DNA of 64,000 nt, taken from positions 62,001-126,000 of the forward strand of contig JAHFTX010000002.1 in NCBI GenBank assembly GCA_023265395.1, given 5' to 3'. Source of the stretch: Thermoplasmata archaeon. Its GTDB lineage: Archaea; Thermoplasmatota; DTKX01; JAHFTX01. Shown piece by piece: positions 44,341 to 64,000 of this stretch. Position 1 is the first letter of the stretch, and the number at the start of each line of letters is the position of its first letter. The notes beneath the pieces are model-generated. The model saw only the letters and a program-made list of their open reading frames with translations, had not been told where the DNA came from and ran no database searches. Both the position numbers and the translations under genes were made by a program.

Positions 44341-44393
44341 GTTCGCAACAGGAAGGATTAATGGCCCCCTTGGGGAAGGCTGGAGGTCGGCCG

Positions 44394-47300
44394 ATGGCTG
44401 CACCGGAGGTCCGCCTGTTGCATCGTGCTCCCCTCCCCTCCCGCGCAGCCGTGGTCGCCCTGACGGCCTTGCTGCTGGCACCGGCCCTGCCGCTGGCGCT
44501 GGTGGGCGGTTCGACCGACGACCGCGCAGCCTTCCAGCTGACCACCACCACCTTCGCTGGCGACGCCGCCACCCTGGGGATCATCATCGACGAGCTCCCC
44601 GAGACGGTGATCGCCGACGGCTTCTCGGTCCAAGATGGGCTGAACATCGACTCGGCGTCGATGATGGCCGCCGGCAGCGGCCATCCGCTCAATGGGTCCT
44701 ACCTGCGCAACATCGAGATGGACATCGGCCAGGATGGGGACATCGACTGGGCCTTCGAGGGGGCAGGCTACGGCGCGCTGGGGATGCAGGACATCTTCAG
44801 CAATGGGCAGCTCGATGCCAATGCCACCGTGCTGAGCGGGGCGCAGACCAACACCAGCTTCGGCCTCTGGCTGCCCAAGAACGCCACCGTCACCCAAGCG
44901 ACGGGCAAGGCCACGGTGATGGCCGTCAACGTCGCCATCGAGTGCCCCCCCGGCGGGGCTGACTGCGACGAGGCGGCCCAGCTGGTCACCATGCTCTCGG
45001 GCATGGGCTTTGCCGCCAGGGTGGTCAATCCCACGGACATCGACACCGTCGGGGAGCTGGCCGGCTATACCACGGTCATGGTCGGTGGCAGCGGCTCGCA
45101 GGAAGCGCACCTTGCGGCCTTCGCCCCGGCCTTGCGCACCTACGTCGAAGGCGGTGGCGGGGTGGTCTTCGCCGGCATGATCTACGACGACGCGAACTGT
45201 TGTTTCTCGGTCGATGCCGACATCGAGTCCGTCTCCCCGGTGAGCTTGAGCGACTGCTGGATGTGCCCCGATTCCGCAACGGTGCAGATCACCGCCGCGG
45301 ACCCCGTCACCACTGGGGTCAACGATTTCGACCTCAGCCAGATGTTCCCCGCCTACACCCTGACCAACGGCGGGGTGCAGCTGGGCGACTCCTCCAACGA
45401 CCCGGGAGCGATCACCATCGCCTCGACCACCATCATCAGCGGGAGGTCCGTCTTCTTGGGCATGCCCTACCTCTATGACAACGACGATGCCGGCGGCTGG
45501 GGCGCCGACCCCACCATCTACGATGATGTCGACGCCCAGGCGCTCCTGCGCAACGCCATCTCCTGGACCTCGGGCAGCCTCAACATGGATGCGAGCATCG
45601 ACATCGGCGACGATGGCGACCTCGAGTGGTCCGCGGTCGCCTTCTCGGGCAACCAGTCCCTGGCGGACTTCACCGACGAGCTCAACAGCCTGCTGGCGAG
45701 CCTCCCGGTGACCGACACCGACGCCTATGGCAACCAGATGGTGCGGATCCCCTTGGCCCTGCAGGGCTCCTCCACCGGGTTGGTCGGTCTGGGCACCTTG
45801 CATGTCGAGTACGACTACCTCGCACGGGTGCACGACAAGCCCGTCAGCGACCTCGAGGCGGAGATCGATGCTGCCCTCTCGCCCTCGCCGAGCACGGTCA
45901 TGGTCAGTTTCCCCATCGGACTGCAGAGCACCACGGCCGGCGTGCTGACGCTGTCGCAACTGGAGGTCATCGGCACCCCACCGCCCCACCCGCCGCACTT
46001 CGAGGAGGTCAGCCCCGACACCGATGCCTTCTCGCTGCCCGAGAACTCGACCCAGCTCCTGCACGCCGTGCCGGGGGACGACTATGGCAACCCCACGACC
46101 CTGCGCTGGCAGCTCGACGACGTCGACGTCTCGACCTCGGACAACTACACCTACGCCCCCGGGTTCGATGATGCCGGCACCCATCGGATCGAGGCCATCG
46201 CCGACAACGGACTGCAGACGGCGACCCATCTGTGGGAGGTCACCGTCACCGATGTCAACCGACCGCCCGTGGTCCTGGGCGTCAGCCCCGCCCTCGATGC
46301 GCAGGTGCCCGAGGCGACCACCACGGTGTTCAAGGTCAATGCGACCGACCCCGACGGCGACCAGCTGACCTACCGGTGGTTCGAGGACGGTGTGTCGCGC
46401 ACCACGGAGTTCTTGGGCACCTTCTCGGCGACCTACGACTACAAGGGTGCGGGCCCGCACCACATCAAGGTGCAGGTGGTCGACGCCGACAACGAGGTCG
46501 TCGAGCGGCAGTGGGACATCACCGTCCTCGATGTCAACGCCCGCACGCGGATCATCTCGAGCCGCCCCTCCGACGGCGTGACCATCGCCGAGCTGCAGGA
46601 CCTGACGTTTGCGGTCACCGCACACAGCCCCGATTCGGACCCGATCACCTACCGCTGGGAGCTCGATGGCACCGCGCTGAGCGCCCAGACCACCTCGACG
46701 ACCACCTACATCGCGACCTTTGACGACGCGGGCACGCACACCATGCTCGTCGTCGTCAATGACGGCCACCAACCGGTGGAGGTCCACTGGAACTTCACCG
46801 TCACCGACCTCAACCGCCCGCCCACCACCTCGATCCTCTCGCCGCTGGCCGATGCCAAGGTCGTCCGCGGACAGCTCCTGCACCTGCAAGCCGCCGACCA
46901 GGCCGACCCCGATGGCGACCCGCTCTCCTTCGTGTGGCGCATCGACAACAAGCAGGTGGCCACCGAGCGCGAGGCCGACATCACCGTCGATGCCCGCGAC
47001 GGCCGCCACTCCCTCTCCCTGGAGGTCAGCGACGGCCGCGGCGGCCTGGCGACGGCGGACCTCACCTTCGAGATCGCCTCGCTGACGTTCACCGGCCGGC
47101 TCTTCTCCAAGTCGGAAGACCTGGTGGCCGACCGTGACGTGCCCCTGCGAGTGGAACTGACCAACACCGGCAGCGCCACGGCCGACAACGTCCCCGTGCG
47201 GGTGCTCCTCGATGGCGTCAGCGTCCACGAGACCACCCTGGCGACCACCAAGCCGCGGCAGGTCCACAGCGTCCCCTTCTCGATCAAGACCAGCGGCGGG

Positions 47301-47978
47301 GAACACACCCTGACCGTCGAGGTCGCCGGCGCGGTGGTGCTGACCAAGACCCTGGAGGTCAGCTCGACACCCTCGCCGCTCAACTTCGGGCCCGGGGGCG
47401 ATGGCGGCTTCTCGATGCTGCTGCTGGTGCTCCTCCTGCTGGTCGTTGCAGGAGCCGTCGTCGGCATCGTGGTGATGCGCCGCCGCCGCACGGCCGCGAG
47501 CGCGCCACCGCCGATGGCCCCCAGCCACGCGCCCTACGGCACCGGAACGGGCATCGGCCTGCCGCCGATGGCGCCCGATGGCGGCACCCCCTACAACCCC
47601 TACGCCGCCCCACCGCAGGCGACCGTCGTCTCCGCCAGCTACGGCACGGCCTCCCCGGGTACGGCGATTCCCCCCACTGCCGGCTTTGGCACCGCGCCGC
47701 CGGGCGCCTATGGCAACGCACCCGCGAGCAGCGGTGGCGGACCTGGAGCTCCGGGTCTGCCCGGAGGCAACCCCCTGCTGACCGCGACGCCGACGACGCC
47801 GGACCAGGTCAACGCCTACCTCAACGAGGTCGAGGCACTGATGCAGCAGAAGGCGGCCTCGGGCACCGACGTCCAGCGCGCCAACGCCCAGATGACGCTG
47901 GCACGCAACCATCAGCGGGCCGGGCGCTTGGCCCAGGCCCACCAAGCGGCCAAGCAGGCCTACGTGCGCCTACGGTAG
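44394..47978 (+). CDS. Large PKD/cadherin-like surface receptor with cytoplasmic helical tail
   Basis: A 1194-residue type I membrane protein. The signal region is followed by a beta-rich domain with a GATase-like strand set (GGSGSQEAHLAAFAP), then about three PKD/cadherin-like repeats, each opening with NRPP-type sequence (DVNRPPVVLGVSP, DLNRPPTTSILSP) and containing DPDGD. An APHP/CARDB-like domain (VELTNTGSATADNVPVRVLL) precedes the helix MLLLVLLLLVVAGAVVGIVV. The cytoplasmic tail is Pro/Gly/Ala/Tyr-rich (YNPYAAPPQ) and ends in a helical hairpin (AQMTLARNHQRAGRLAQAHQ) like those in the zinc-ribbon protein at 14137-16140. ATG 44394 was chosen for its GGAGGT at 6-base spacing; ATG 44361 is the leaderless alternative. 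Confidence 0.82.
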   Translation: MAAPEVRLLHRAPLPSRAAVVALTALLLAPALPLALVGGSTDDRAAFQLTTTTFAGDAATLGIIIDELPETVIADGFSVQDGLNIDSASMMAAGSGHPLNGSYLRNIEMDIGQDGDIDWAFEGAGYGALGMQDIFSNGQLDANATVLSGAQTNTSFGLWLPKNATVTQATGKATVMAVNVAIECPPGGADCDEAAQLVTMLSGMGFAARVVNPTDIDTVGELAGYTTVMVGGSGSQEAHLAAFAPALRTYVEGGGGVVFAGMIYDDANCCFSVDADIESVSPVSLSDCWMCPDSATVQITAADPVTTGVNDFDLSQMFPAYTLTNGGVQLGDSSNDPGAITIASTTIISGRSVFLGMPYLYDNDDAGGWGADPTIYDDVDAQALLRNAISWTSGSLNMDASIDIGDDGDLEWSAVAFSGNQSLADFTDELNSLLASLPVTDTDAYGNQMVRIPLALQGSSTGLVGLGTLHVEYDYLARVHDKPVSDLEAEIDAALSPSPSTVMVSFPIGLQSTTAGVLTLSQLEVIGTPPPHPPHFEEVSPDTDAFSLPENSTQLLHAVPGDDYGNPTTLRWQLDDVDVSTSDNYTYAPGFDDAGTHRIEAIADNGLQTATHLWEVTVTDVNRPPVVLGVSPALDAQVPEATTTVFKVNATDPDGDQLTYRWFEDGVSRTTEFLGTFSATYDYKGAGPHHIKVQVVDADNEVVERQWDITVLDVNARTRIISSRPSDGVTIAELQDLTFAVTAHSPDSDPITYRWELDGTALSAQTTSTTTYIATFDDAGTHTMLVVVNDGHQPVEVHWNFTVTDLNRPPTTSILSPLADAKVVRGQLLHLQAADQADPDGDPLSFVWRIDNKQVATEREADITVDARDGRHSLSLEVSDGRGGLATADLTFEIASLTFTGRLFSKSEDLVADRDVPLRVELTNTGSATADNVPVRVLLDGVSVHETTLATTKPRQVHSVPFSIKTSGGEHTLTVEVAGAVVLTKTLEVSSTPSPLNFGPGGDGGFSMLLLVLLLLVVAGAVVGIVVMRRRRTAASAPPPMAPSHAPYGTGTGIGLPPMAPDGGTPYNPYAAPPQATVVSASYGTASPGTAIPPTAGFGTAPPGAYGNAPASSGGGPGAPGLPGGNPLLTATPTTPDQVNAYLNEVEALMQQKAASGTDVQRANAQMTLARNHQRAGRLAQAHQAAKQAYVRLR

Positions 47979-48759: not shown

Positions 48760-50745
48760 TCACCCGCTGTCGTCGCTGGGCAGCGTCGTCGTCGCAAAGA
48801 GGGAGGTCCAGGAGGGCGGATGCTCCGCCGCCCGTGCCTGCTCGAGACGCTCCTGGGGGAGCGTCCAGAGGGTGCCATCGGTCCACTGCAGGCTGACGAC
48901 CCCGTCGCCGTCGTCGGTGGCGATGACCACCACATAGGGGTGCTCGATGGTGGTCGTGCGCGTGTTGAACACCTGCGACGTCATCCTGTAGGAACCGACC
49001 GAGACGACCTCGAAGTCGGTCAACCCCGTGCGCGCATAGGCGGTCCAGTCGTTGGCCTGCTCGCGGTGGGGCGGGTCGTTGTCGTCGTAGAGCAGCAGCG
49101 CCATCGCCGTCCCAGGGTCGTCGAGGGCTCCGAGGAAGCTCGAACCGTAGATCGCGATGACCGCCTGCTCGGGGGTCGGCTGCCCCGAGGCTTGGAAGTC
49201 ACGCCCCCACACCTGGCCGATCTGCAGGTCGTAGTCGTAGGTGTACAGCTGCAGCCGCTCATCGTGCCGCAGGTAATAGGCGATGGGCGAGTAGGTCACC
49301 CACGTGGGCACCAGCACCGGTGCGTCGGCGCCCACCTGCAGTCGCGCCTGCTGGACATCCTGCGCCAGCATCTGCGTCGGCGCGCTGGCGCCGACCCAGA
49401 AGATCCCGAAGGGGCTGGCGGGCAGGTTCGTGTCGCTGCCCGTCGACATCTCGATGCTCGATGCGGTCGCATAGAGCGGGGTGTAGCCCAGCACCAGCAT
49501 GCACCCGACACCGATGGTGGCCATGCGCCGTGGCGAGATCTGCACCGAGGGCCACAGCTCGACGAGCCAGTGCGCCGCAAGCAGGCTCAGCGCCACCAGT
49601 GCCGGCGCCGTCCAGTGGGGGAGGCGACCCAGGCTCAGGCCGAACCAGAGCAGGAACACACCGGCACTGGTGCCGAGCACGGCGGTGCGCTCGTCGCGCC
49701 ACCCGCGGATGCAGCTGCCGATGGCCAGCAGCAGCAGCACCACGACGATGGTCGTCGCAGGCTCCCCCATCGCGATCCCCAGCAGCGTCAGCGGTGCCAG
49801 CGCCGCGATCAGGCCGACCTTCCAGCCGGGCAGCGACCAGCGGGCGGCGCGCAGGCCACCGACGACCAGCACGCCCACCAGCGGCATCGACGCTGCCATC
49901 GCCCAGAAGAAGGGCGAGTAGAAACCGCCGACGAGCAGGTTGAGTCCCACGCCACCGGGACCGAGCAGTGCCCCCAGGGCCGCACCCCGGCCCCCTTGGT
50001 AGGAGAAGGAGGCGAAGTCGTTCTGCAGGTTCCACACCAGGATCGGGGTGCACAGCAGCAGCGCCAGCGTCAGGGCGATCCGGCCATGGCGACCCAGCAG
50101 GAAGGCGCGGTGCTGGCGCAGCTGCAGCGCCAGCAGCAGGATGATCGGGATCCACACTGCCAGGGTGTACTTGACGAGGATGCCCGTCCCGATGAGCATG
50201 CCCACCGCCCACAGGCTCCGCGGATCGTGGGTGCGCAACGCGCGCAGCAGCACCAGCAGGATCAGGGCGAAGAGGAGGATCGCTGCGCTGTCGTTGAAGG
50301 CGACACGGCTGAGCAGCACATGGACGAAGTCGACCCCCAGCAGGAAGGCGGCGACCAACCCGACCGTGCGGTCGTAGAGCTCGACGCCCAGCAGGTAGGT
50401 CACCACCACCGTGGCGACTCCCAGTGACGCCGCCACGGCGCGCAGCCCAAAGAGGGAGTCGCCAAAGAGCAGTTGCGAGAGCGCGACCTCGTAGGCGACG
50501 GCCGGCGGATGGTCGTAGAAGGACCACTCCAGATGACCCAGCTGCAGCTGGTCGCCCCAGACCCAGTAGTAGGCCTCGTCGTGGAAGAGCGGCTGCTCAC
50601 CCAGTCCGACGAACCGCAGCGCCGCGGCCAGCGCGATCACCAGCGCCAGCAGCAGCTGGTGGGTGGTCAGCGCCAGCGGCCAGCGCAGGGCCGTCGACGT
50701 CACTGCGCCCTGTTGCATCCTCTCGACCGCCTGCCTGCCGACCAC
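48760..50745 (-). CDS. GT39 / ArnT-like lipid-linked glycosyltransferase
   Basis: A 661-residue polytopic membrane protein with ~11-12 helices. The first extracytoplasmic loop has HDEAYYWVWGDQL and FYDHPPAVAYEVALSQLLFG, the acidic DE and the YDHPP signatures of PMT/ArnT-type transferases. These use polyprenyl-phosphate sugars to glycosylate proteins or lipids on the outside. A C-terminal ~200-residue soluble domain faces outward. The gene starts 6 bases after the GT2-GtrA stop (GTG 50745, preceded by a GGTGAG-like ribosome site). Together they look like a two-step mannosylation route: synthesis of the lipid-linked sugar, then transfer. The acceptor is not known. Confidence 0.87.
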   Translation of the reverse strand: MVGRQAVERMQQGAVTSTALRWPLALTTHQLLLALVIALAAALRFVGLGEQPLFHDEAYYWVWGDQLQLGHLEWSFYDHPPAVAYEVALSQLLFGDSLFGLRAVAASLGVATVVVTYLLGVELYDRTVGLVAAFLLGVDFVHVLLSRVAFNDSAAILLFALILLVLLRALRTHDPRSLWAVGMLIGTGILVKYTLAVWIPIILLLALQLRQHRAFLLGRHGRIALTLALLLCTPILVWNLQNDFASFSYQGGRGAALGALLGPGGVGLNLLVGGFYSPFFWAMAASMPLVGVLVVGGLRAARWSLPGWKVGLIAALAPLTLLGIAMGEPATTIVVVLLLLAIGSCIRGWRDERTAVLGTSAGVFLLWFGLSLGRLPHWTAPALVALSLLAAHWLVELWPSVQISPRRMATIGVGCMLVLGYTPLYATASSIEMSTGSDTNLPASPFGIFWVGASAPTQMLAQDVQQARLQVGADAPVLVPTWVTYSPIAYYLRHDERLQLYTYDYDLQIGQVWGRDFQASGQPTPEQAVIAIYGSSFLGALDDPGTAMALLLYDDNDPPHREQANDWTAYARTGLTDFEVVSVGSYRMTSQVFNTRTTTIEHPYVVVIATDDGDGVVSLQWTDGTLWTLPQERLEQARAAEHPPSWTSLFATTTLPSDDSG

Positions 50746-59572: not shown

Positions 59573-60520
59573 GTGGCGGAGGCCAGCGAGAGCGTCATCG
59601 AGGCCAAGGGGCTGCGCAAGACCTACGGCAGCCTCGATGCGGTCGGCGGCGTCTCGCTGAGCGTCCGCAAGGGGGAGATCTTCGGGTTCTTCGGCCCCAA
59701 CGGCGCGGGTAAGTCGACGATGATCAAGCTGCTGACGGGGCAGACGGCCCTCTCGGCTGGCTCGGCGACGGTCGCCGGGATGGACCTGGCGAGTTCGCCG
59801 ACGGCGGTGCGCACCGCCATGGCCATCATGCCCGAGGAGGCCTCCTTCTACGAACGGATGCCCGTGGGCGACTACCTGCGGTTCTTCGCGGCGATGGCGG
59901 GTCTTGGCGGTGCCGAGGCGCGCAGTCGCCTCTCCAGCGCTCAGGAGGTCGCCGAGGTCGGCGAGTTCGTGCGCAAGCCCATCGCCGACCTCTCCCATGG
60001 ACAGCGGCAGCGGGTCTCGATCGCGCGAGTGCTCCTCAGCGACGTGCCCCTGCTGTTCCTCGACGAGCCCTTCCAAGGCATCGACATCGTCCACCGCCGG
60101 ACCCTGCGTGCGCACCTTCGCGCCTTCGTCGACGCCGGTGGGACGGTCTTCTTCACCTCCCACAACCTCATCGAGGCCGAGCACATCGTCGACCGCTTCG
60201 CCTTCATCGACAAGGGCAAGCTGCTGACCATCGGGACCGCCGCGCAGCTGCGGGAGCGGTACCTGCTGCCCTCCTACGCGATCAAGGTCTCCGACCCCGC
60301 CGCGGCGGTGCGGGTGCTCCAGCAGCAGTTGCACCCCAAGGAGTGCACGGTCTCCGGCGACGAGGTCCACCTGGTGTTGGCGGACCGCGCCGACCTGCCC
60401 AAGGTCGCCACGGTGATCGGGAGTGCTGGGCTGACGCTGACCGAGCTGCGCCAGCAAGGGACGATGGAGGAGGTGTTCCTGCAGCTGCGGGAACGGCCGG
60501 CCGAGCGGGAGGGCCCCTGA
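59573..60520 (+). CDS. ABC-2 type exporter ATP-binding protein
   Basis: A 315-residue nucleotide-binding subunit. Walker A is GPNGAGKST, the Q-loop region MPEEASFYERM, the signature LSHGQRQRVSIAR (LSHGQ in place of LSGGQ), Walker B PLLFLDEPFQGID, and the switch His in FFTSHNL. A C-terminal ~85-residue extension is like those of ABC-2/CcmA-type ATPases (DrrA, NatA). The start is GTG 59573 with a GGAGG about 14 bases upstream. The permease gene starts 2 bases after the stop, so they form one transporter. The cargo is unknown. Confidence 0.92.
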   Translation: MAEASESVIEAKGLRKTYGSLDAVGGVSLSVRKGEIFGFFGPNGAGKSTMIKLLTGQTALSAGSATVAGMDLASSPTAVRTAMAIMPEEASFYERMPVGDYLRFFAAMAGLGGAEARSRLSSAQEVAEVGEFVRKPIADLSHGQRQRVSIARVLLSDVPLLFLDEPFQGIDIVHRRTLRAHLRAFVDAGGTVFFTSHNLIEAEHIVDRFAFIDKGKLLTIGTAAQLRERYLLPSYAIKVSDPAAAVRVLQQQLHPKECTVSGDEVHLVLADRADLPKVATVIGSAGLTLTELRQQGTMEEVFLQLRERPAEREGP

Positions 60521-60522
60521 AC

Positions 60523-61929
60523 ATGCGCCCGGATCGCCGCAAGGCGATGGTGGCGATCGTCGGCCGCGACCTGCGCCAGGTGCGCCGGCACGGGCTGGTG
60601 ACGCTGCAGGTGGTCAGCACCCTGCTCTTCCTCTTTGGCCTCGTCGCCTTCAGCTTCGTCGGCTCCAACATCCGGGAGTGCGGCTTCACCTCGATGACCG
60701 GGTCGGTGCCTGGTGGCTGCGGCGTACCGCTGCAGGGACAGTTGCACGTGACCAGCCTCAACGGAGCGGCGCCGTTGCATGTCGTGGTCGTCGCGCAGGT
60801 GCAGGGTGGCACGGCTCCCTACGAGTACGCCTGGTCCTCGGGGGACGGCCGCGAGGGTCGCGGCACCGTGGGCGACTTCACCTACGATCGGCCCGGGACC
60901 TACCTGATCAACCTGCACGTGCGCGACAGCGGTGAGGGGGACCTCTCGCTCGGCCCGATCCCGGTGGCGGTCTCGGCACCGCCGCTGCCTCCCGAGCACG
61001 CGCCCCTGGTGGTCGCCATCGGCGCCGACCATCTCGAGGGGGGGGCGCCCCAGGTGGTCTCCCTCTATGCCGCGGTGGCCGGAGGGGTGGGACCCTACAC
61101 CTACGCCTGGCAGCTGGGCGACGGGCGCACCGACACCCAAGAGCGACCGGTGCACCTCTACGGCGTCGGCCAGCATGGCGTGCGGTTGACGGTCACCGAC
61201 GCCTCGGGGCACAACGTCACCACCGAGCCGCTCCACGTGGAGTCCTTCGGACCCAGCGGGGGAGGGCTGCCCTTTACCCTCCTCGACATCGCCTTCGGGT
61301 ATGCCGCACTGGTCTGCGCGTTGCTGCTGCCGACCATCTTCGCCCTGACCTTCCGCCACGAGCTGGCCCGCGGCACCGTGCGGGTGCTGACCACCTACCC
61401 CGTGGGCGTGCTCGAGGTGACGGTGGCCAAGCTCTGCTCGACGGGGGCGCTGGGGCTGCTGCTGGGCCTGCCCATCGTGGTGCTGCCGATGCTCCTTGCC
61501 GGGCTGCCCACCTCGACGGTGCTGGGGATCTTCCTGGTGGCCTACCTGCTGACGATGGTCACCATCGCCGTCGGGGCGATGCTCTCGTGCCTGCTGGCCC
61601 GTGCCCGCGGCCGGATGGTGCTGCGACCGACATCGATCCCCTTTGCGCTGACCATCCCGTTCTTCGTCCTCACGCGGCTGTCGGGCTGGCTCCTCCAAGG
61701 GCTGGTCCTGTTGGTGCATCTGCCCCAGGGCACGGCCGATGGACTGGCGGCGGTGCTGCTGCCGCTGGTGACCATCTCGCCCTACCATCAGGGAGGGCTG
61801 CTGCTGTCGATGGTCCAGCACGGGGGCAACGTCCCCGATGTCCTGGTCTGGCCACTGCCGGTGCTGGTGCTCCTCGCCGGCGGCGTCGTGACCAAGGCGC
61901 TCTACCCCGACCTCTACGAGCGGGAGTGA
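60523..61929 (+). CDS. ABC-2 permease with two PKD domains in an extracytoplasmic loop
   Basis: 468 residues. The first helix (LVTLQVVSTLLFLFGLVAFS) is followed by a ~200-residue extracytoplasmic region with two PKD domains. The first is APYEYAWSSGDGREGRGT with PGTYLINLHVRDSG; the second is GPYTYAWQLGDGRTD with GQHGVRLTVTDASG. Then five or more helices form an ABC-2 membrane domain (LDIAFGYAALVCALLLPTIF, TLLGxxx-type helices, and RHELARGTVRVLTTYPVG before helix 3, a common ABC-2 coupling feature). PKD domains mediate protein or glycan contacts on surfaces, so the loop may bind a substrate or the S-layer. The ATG at 60523 is 2 bases after the ATPase stop. Confidence 0.85.
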   Translation: MRPDRRKAMVAIVGRDLRQVRRHGLVTLQVVSTLLFLFGLVAFSFVGSNIRECGFTSMTGSVPGGCGVPLQGQLHVTSLNGAAPLHVVVVAQVQGGTAPYEYAWSSGDGREGRGTVGDFTYDRPGTYLINLHVRDSGEGDLSLGPIPVAVSAPPLPPEHAPLVVAIGADHLEGGAPQVVSLYAAVAGGVGPYTYAWQLGDGRTDTQERPVHLYGVGQHGVRLTVTDASGHNVTTEPLHVESFGPSGGGLPFTLLDIAFGYAALVCALLLPTIFALTFRHELARGTVRVLTTYPVGVLEVTVAKLCSTGALGLLLGLPIVVLPMLLAGLPTSTVLGIFLVAYLLTMVTIAVGAMLSCLLARARGRMVLRPTSIPFALTIPFFVLTRLSGWLLQGLVLLVHLPQGTADGLAAVLLPLVTISPYHQGGLLLSMVQHGGNVPDVLVWPLPVLVLLAGGVVTKALYPDLYERE

Positions 61930-62910: not shown

Positions 62911-64000
62911 ATGGAAATAGACCGGCGCCGCAAGCTGATGGCGCTCTCCATCGTCGTCCTGTTGCTGCTTGCAGGTGGCGTGGTGCTCCTGTTCCGGCCC
63001 GGGATGTGGGGCACGACACCGCGGCAGGGTGCGCCGGCGACGCCGATGGTGCCCTTCGTGATCTGCGACCCGCAGTGCAACCCCGACATCGACCCCGGCC
63101 CGGCCCCGGTCAACGAGGTCGACATCGGGATCAACCCCGTCGACCCGCTCAACATGATCGTCTCGGGCAACGACTACAACACCTCGACCGGCCTCCACTG
63201 GTTGGGCGTCTACTGGAGCAAGGACGGCGGCAAGAACTGGAACCACTCGATGCTCGAGGGCTGCCCCGGCTGCCCCGACAACCAGCTCTCCACCTTCGCC
63301 GGCAGCGGTGACCCGGTCATCGTCTACGGCGCCGACGGAACGGCCTACCTCGCCGGCATCGCCTCGGGAGACCGCGACAGCGCCCCGATCCAGCGGCTGC
63401 TGCGCCGCGACCCATTGTCGGTGACCCTCTCGGCGATCTCCACCGACGGCGGGGCGACCTGGTCCAACATCGCCTATCAGGGGACCGCCTACACCCGCCT
63501 GACCTTCCACGACAAGGAGTGGATCGAGACCGACCCCAACAGTCAGTACGTCTACATGGCGTGGATCGCCTTCGAGGGGGCCGTCACCTCTCGGATGCAG
63601 GTGAGCACCTCCGCCGACGGCGGGCGGACCTGGGGCACGCCGGTCATCTACACCGAGCTGCGGCAGCTGGAGCTCAACACCCAAGGGGCGACGCCGATGG
63701 TCGGCGCCGACGGCACGCTGGTCGTGGCCTTCATCGACTACCAGAAGAACCAGATGATGGCCGTCCGCTCCCACGACCACGGCGCCACCTTCGATTCGCC
63801 GACGCCGGTGTGCCCCGTCACCCCGATCAACCGCAACTTCCCGGAGTACACCTTCCGGACACCGACGATCCCGCAGGGCGTGGTCGACCGCAGCGGCGGT
63901 CCCCACGACGGCCGTTACTACCTGACCTGGGAGGACATGGCCTCGGGCAACTCCGACATCCAGCTGACCTACAGCGATGACGGCGGGGTCACCTGGTCCG
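62911..64000 (+). CDS. Membrane-anchored BNR-repeat (sialidase-like) surface protein, 3' end missing
   Basis: The frame is open to the end of the window, at least 363 residues. A signal anchor (LMALSIVVLLLLAGGVVLLF) near residues 9-28 places the rest outside. BNR/Asp-box sequences of the form S-x-DGG-x-TW are seen repeatedly: YWSKDGGKNW, STDGGATWSN, TSADGGRTWG, SHDHGATFDS and YSDDGGVTW. This is the beta-propeller of sialidases and other glycan-binding proteins. The catalytic Arg triad and Tyr of a true sialidase cannot be judged from this part. ATG 62911 fits a position just before the anchor. Confidence 0.83.
   Translation, partial: MEIDRRRKLMALSIVVLLLLAGGVVLLFRPGMWGTTPRQGAPATPMVPFVICDPQCNPDIDPGPAPVNEVDIGINPVDPLNMIVSGNDYNTSTGLHWLGVYWSKDGGKNWNHSMLEGCPGCPDNQLSTFAGSGDPVIVYGADGTAYLAGIASGDRDSAPIQRLLRRDPLSVTLSAISTDGGATWSNIAYQGTAYTRLTFHDKEWIETDPNSQYVYMAWIAFEGAVTSRMQVSTSADGGRTWGTPVIYTELRQLELNTQGATPMVGADGTLVVAFIDYQKNQMMAVRSHDHGATFDSPTPVCPVTPINRNFPEYTFRTPTIPQGVVDRSGGPHDGRYYLTWEDMASGNSDIQLTYSDDGGVTWS

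Follow-up and report, generated by a model that had tools for sequence, protein, structure and literature searches.

A two-gene ABC transporter of a Thermoplasmata archaeon with two PKD domains on the extracellular side of its membrane subunit

The ectodomain of ABCA transporters is situated between transmembrane helices 1 and 2 (TM1 and TM2), and we know of no large ectodomain in DrrB. ABCA1 and ABCA4 belong to the type V fold class and combine a large extracellular domain with a regulatory domain on the ATPase (PMC11466899). Sizeable extracellular domains are also found on the type V-like membrane domains of NatAB, YhaQP and LnrLMN from Bacillus subtilis, which together with YhcHI are described as 'type V/VI hybrid' exporters (PMC11466899). 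The ectodomains of these hybrids are described as a five-stranded sheet with flanking helices that belongs to no known domain family or, in the case of YhcHI, as a coiled coil.

The 64,000-nucleotide stretch of archaeal DNA analysed here (the window) encodes a two-gene ABC transporter whose membrane half bears two PKD (immunoglobulin-like) domains outside the cell. Its features are as follows.

59573–60520, + strand: ABC ATPase, DrrA/NatA-like, 315 aa, with a C-terminal extension past the nucleotide-binding domain (PF00005, E 8e-27)
59990–60004, + strand: ABC signature LSHGQ, read directly
60523–61929, + strand: 468-aa permease of the ABC-2 (type V-like) kind, bearing the PKD ectodomain (open frame, Pfam, full-length orthologs)
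60523–60678, + strand: N-terminal positively charged (elbow-like) helix and TM1, residues 1–52 (TM1 at 25–43 by hydropathy; model helix 5–52)
60733–60975, + strand: PKD domain 1, residues 71–151 (PF00801 stretch 81–136; beta strands, pLDDT about 88–96 over most of the domain)
60997–61248, + strand: PKD domain 2, residues 159–242 (PF18911 at 159–236; beta strands, pLDDT about 83–97)
61279–61896, + strand: TM2–TM6 core, residues 253–458 (hydropathy, model helices, ABC2_membrane_3 at 253–390)
61354–61383, + strand: conserved cytoplasmic loop after TM2, RHELARGTVR (ExxKGTxR in relatives), K/R-rich, with G284 invariant in 8 homologs
61777–61797, + strand: SPYHQGG motif (SPFHxGG in relatives) in the external TM5–TM6 segment, with S419, P420, H422 and G425 invariant in 8 homologs

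Like NatAB, YhaQP, LnrLMN and YhcHI, the archaeal pair combines an ABC-2 core carrying an extracellular domain with a separate NatA/DrrA-like ATPase, which in such systems often has a C-terminal regulatory domain. It differs from them in its tandem PKD domains, of which relatives have zero, two or three. With DrrAB-type exporters (TIGR01188) it shares the two-gene ATPase-permease layout and an ATPase most like DrrA, although the latter scores below the TIGR01188 cut-off. The ABCA proteins differ in being single-chain full transporters with unrelated ectodomains. The first-pass annotation had placed two PKD domains in the loop after the first helix, a placement that it did not know from any described transporter. 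The site is correct and is borne out by Pfam, hydropathy, AlphaFold and orthologs, but it is not unusual: since NatAB, YhaQP and LnrLMN (PMC11466899) as well as ABCA1/ABCA4 carry ectodomains, the placement is of a known kind. What appears to be undescribed, as far as the PMC papers searched show, is the PKD domain as occupant of this slot; those papers, which leave out most subscription articles, contained no account of an ABC-2 permease bearing PKD domains.

The permease is encoded by a single uninterrupted open reading frame running from ATG to TGA, and only 2 bases separate its start from the ATPase stop codon at 60518–60520. Pfam detects two PKD stretches, with PF18911 at E 3.3e-19 (69.2 bits against a cut-off of 27) and PF00801 at E 2.6e-11 (43.8 bits against 23.5). 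ABC2_membrane_3 follows the PKD domains at E 1.7e-5 and 24.5 bits, which is under its curated cut-off of 31.6. In the ortholog L015, ABC2_membrane_2 scores 28.5 bits, above the cut-off of 27.2, and because this match spans TM1, the PKD domains and TM2–TM5, the PKD domains must lie inside one permease domain. Hydropathy indicates six TM helices, with the PKD domains between TM1 (25–43) and TM2 (256–274). Eight K/R residues precede TM1 and the two ends of the PKD loop have only one nearby, which by the positive-inside rule puts the loop outside and the N-terminus inside. The loop after TM2 is likely a coupling helix that touches the ATPase.

A first AlphaFold model, built with 8 sequences, had a pLDDT of 55.8; with PKD pairs and more permeases added, a second model reached a mean of 81.6, with blocks within the PKD domains mostly at 82–97. 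This model shows two beta-sandwiches between helix 5–52 and helix 253–282. Model helices 5–52 and 402–433 may correspond to the amphipathic elbow and re-entrant TM5–TM6 helices of type V exporters, respectively, but TM5–TM6 has a pLDDT of only about 62–81 in this single-chain model. The PKD fold is the same as in archaeal S-layer PKD proteins (PDB 1l0q) and in collagenase PKDs, but there it belongs to proteins that are secreted or surface-located and have no transporter part. Fold searches returned only Ig/PKD ectodomains and no ABC membrane domains among the matches listed, and the sole PDB sequence matched by the membrane core was that of CcmB, at E 0.21.

The ATPase has intact Walker A and Walker B motifs and an H-loop, so that a separate ATPase with all of these and the signature adjoins the permease, as in ABC-2/type V exporters. 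Its top NCBIfam match is drrA TIGR01188 (209 bits, below the cut-off of 312), and Pfam finds a weak DrrA1-3_C match at residues 221–304. It is 47–58% identical to ATPases adjoining other PKD permeases. The LSHGQ signature pointed out in the first-pass annotation is present and recurs in L015 and L016, whereas most members of family f42 (see below) have LSQGQ, LSMGQ or LSQGE and the PKD-less family f64 has LSMGER or MSMGER. Since the signature differs among such close relatives, we regard LSHGQ as an ordinary variant of a variable position and reject it as a special or diagnostic signature. Membership in a defence system was likewise rejected, as PADLOC gave no match for the permease and nothing more specific than general ATPase models, mad3 among them, for the ATPase.

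The genome survey for PKD permeases covered one phylum, that of the window. The PKD form is present in at least 13 related genomes from two classes, plus one fragment. Two genomes from another family of the same class (G001 and G003) encode full-length orthologs that are 32–33% identical and carry two PKD domains next to an ATPase with LSHGQ; permeases with PKD domains are absent from two other genomes of the window's class. In a different class, the version encoded by genome G250 is 628 aa long and contains a single clear PKD domain along with two weaker PKD-like domains; its ATPase adjoins it. Nine more genomes of its family, f42, have three PKD or PKD-like domains in frame with the permease core, bringing f42 to 10 genomes and the one fragment. 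A search for plasmid-borne relatives gave PKD matches only and no PKD permease, and one scan of GTDB contigs gave only PKD matches, in Bacteroidota. In the f42 PKD permeases (L067, L138–L142), the elbow helix is preceded by a conserved N-terminal tail rich in proline, ELPPPPxD/E; this tail is predicted to be cytoplasmic and is not found in the window protein.

Comparison of G001 with G003 gives a dN/dS of 0.31 over both PKD domains (PKD1 0.53, PKD2 0.18), indicating purifying selection, and of 0.27 over TM2–6. Within f42, the PKD domains are 44–54% identical, as against 70% for TM2–6 and 77% for the ATPase. The PKD copy number is constant within each family, at one site. The PKD domains thus drift faster than the core while keeping their fold, which suggests an exposed module, and the retention of fold and number in f42 despite this drift is easier to reconcile with a stalk or docking function than with an exact binding site.

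The ATPase adjoins the permease in all families examined (f1, f2, f42, f64, f11, f16, f8 and f4). In f42 the flanks are conserved and comprise, as named by sequence reading, an aldehyde ferredoxin oxidoreductase-like gene, a TauE-like transporter and an aldehyde dehydrogenase, none of which is shared with f1 or f2. No partner gene besides ATPase and permease is conserved across families, and since the flanking genes differ, these two form the sole constant unit. The window's genome (G000, a 2.78 Mb bin of 75 contigs) contains 141 PKD_4 stretches, which points to a markedly PKD-rich cell surface. Its full-length SSU rRNA scores 1496 bits against the archaeal model (positions 1–1478), and although bacterial sequences also match that model, a score this high over the full length indicates an archaeal source. 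Elsewhere in the window (about 44350–47978), sequence reading points to a large protein, either secreted or anchored in the membrane, that has PKD-like repeats as well as a TM segment at its C-terminus; it is followed by a probable ArnT-like glycosyltransferase on the opposite strand (48760–50745). A probably secreted BNR/Asp-box repeat protein starts in the window (62911–63999) and continues beyond it.

The same ATPase-permease pair also occurs without PKD domains. The loop is empty (about 15 aa) in f16 and f8, the seven f64 loci examined lack PKD domains, f11 has an acidic loop of 58–70 aa in the slot, and f4 has a domain of about 180 aa that is not a PKD domain and has no Pfam match. One such ortholog, L101:3029–4357 in genome G005, with an ectodomain of this size and again no Pfam match, possibly represents a new ectodomain family. 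By hydropathy, PKD-less and PKD-bearing members have in common six-helix topology, a positive N-terminus and an external loop, with the threshold catching 5 of 6 helices in f16 and f8. As sister lineages carry nothing, an acidic loop or an unrelated domain at this position, the TM1–TM2 loop is an interchangeable ectodomain slot, at a position that holds domains in NatB-like and ABCA-type transporters as well.

On an ATPase tree, from which the PKD trait was left out, f1, f2 and f42 (16 rows) fall into a single clade with support of 96/86; three of these rows were unscored because the permease is off the contig or incomplete. Parsimony on this tree explains the PKD state with one change, so that one gain suffices and is the most parsimonious history. 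The sister group of the clade is unsure, because some outgroup branches are long. Taken individually, PKD domains of f1 resemble those of f2 no more closely than either resembles those of other PKD proteins; one-to-one orthology between them is unsupported, and PKD domains may have been exchanged repeatedly in the slot after the first gain.

We consider it probable that the pair is a type V two-gene exporter with the PKD domains as accessory extracellular stalks, perhaps for docking or cargo hand-over. An ATPase closest to DrrA and a permease matching ABC-2 families support the exporter reading; the sub-cut-off ABC-2 scores of the window protein, the missing partner gene across families, the single PDB match of the core (CcmB) and fold matches confined to the ectodomain count against it. 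By homology, the complex would probably contain two ATPases and two permeases. The DrrA/NatA-like ATPase would bind and hydrolyse ATP and act through the loop after TM2 on the six-helix permease, which would let go of its cargo at the outer face; this cargo could be hydrophobic, linked to a lipid or part of the envelope. Each half would bear a short extracellular stalk made up of its two PKD domains between TM1 and TM2. Rather than being part of the pore, the stalks would most likely dock the transporter on the PKD-rich surface coat or assist in handing cargo on. The existence of PKD-less orthologs argues that they do not belong to the obligatory transport cycle. That their role is docking or hand-over is a guess, possible but falling short of probable. 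Substrate capture, contact with the S-layer and gating of export, which the first-pass annotation put forward, are likewise no more than guesses.

That the gene is an artefact, in which a frameshift, a mis-assembly or overlapping frames would have joined a permease to a secreted PKD protein, can be practically dismissed. The bin is of high GC content and contains many long spurious frames, yet the same fusion recurs in 13 genomes, always in an uninterrupted frame and beside the same gene, and this, together with a Pfam permease match across the insert, refutes the false fusion that the first-pass annotation had named as a possible refutation. Some extracellular PKD domains bind polymers, and the PKD domains might instead be the substrate-binding part, with a ligand such as a surface glycan or a peptide being captured and then exported, handed over or imported. 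Importers such as ABCA4 exist among type V proteins (PMC8386196), which lends this reading some weight and leaves the direction of transport uncertain, but PKD domains that evolve faster than the core, vary in number by lineage (2 or 3) and are missing from some members make it unlikely.

Less likely still is a mechanotransmitter, in which ATP-driven motion of the membrane domain would move the PKD stalks on an outside partner without cargo crossing. Type VII ABC proteins with large ectodomains (MacB, FtsEX) act in this way (PMC11466899), and the rigid beta-sandwich stalks of the AlphaFold model are joined directly to TM1 and TM2. Nevertheless, each half has six TM helices instead of the four of the MacB/FtsX fold, PKD-less orthologs retain the same ATPase and core, and there is no conserved partner gene. 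We give equally little credence to a passive spacer, a neutral decoration acquired from the many PKD domains of the genome and retained for no specific purpose. Plentiful genomic PKD domains and their faster evolution would fit, but one would then not expect purifying selection, a copy number fixed within each family, or retention at a single site in 13 or more genomes spanning two classes.

Returning to the exporter with accessory stalks, a more specific version is that, in this archaeal clade, PKD domains took over an ancestral slot on a single occasion and physically tether the exporter to the PKD-rich coat, so that coat components or lipids would be exported by a machine anchored at the surface; this we regard as speculative and rather improbable. 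At the level of the family, one orthologous archaeal lineage displays a swappable TM1–TM2 slot that is empty or holds an acidic loop, an unrelated domain, two PKD domains or three PKD or PKD-like domains. It thus provides a natural comparison series for the function of type V-like ectodomains, and it may connect an exporter with the surface, rich in PKD domains, of uncultured archaea.
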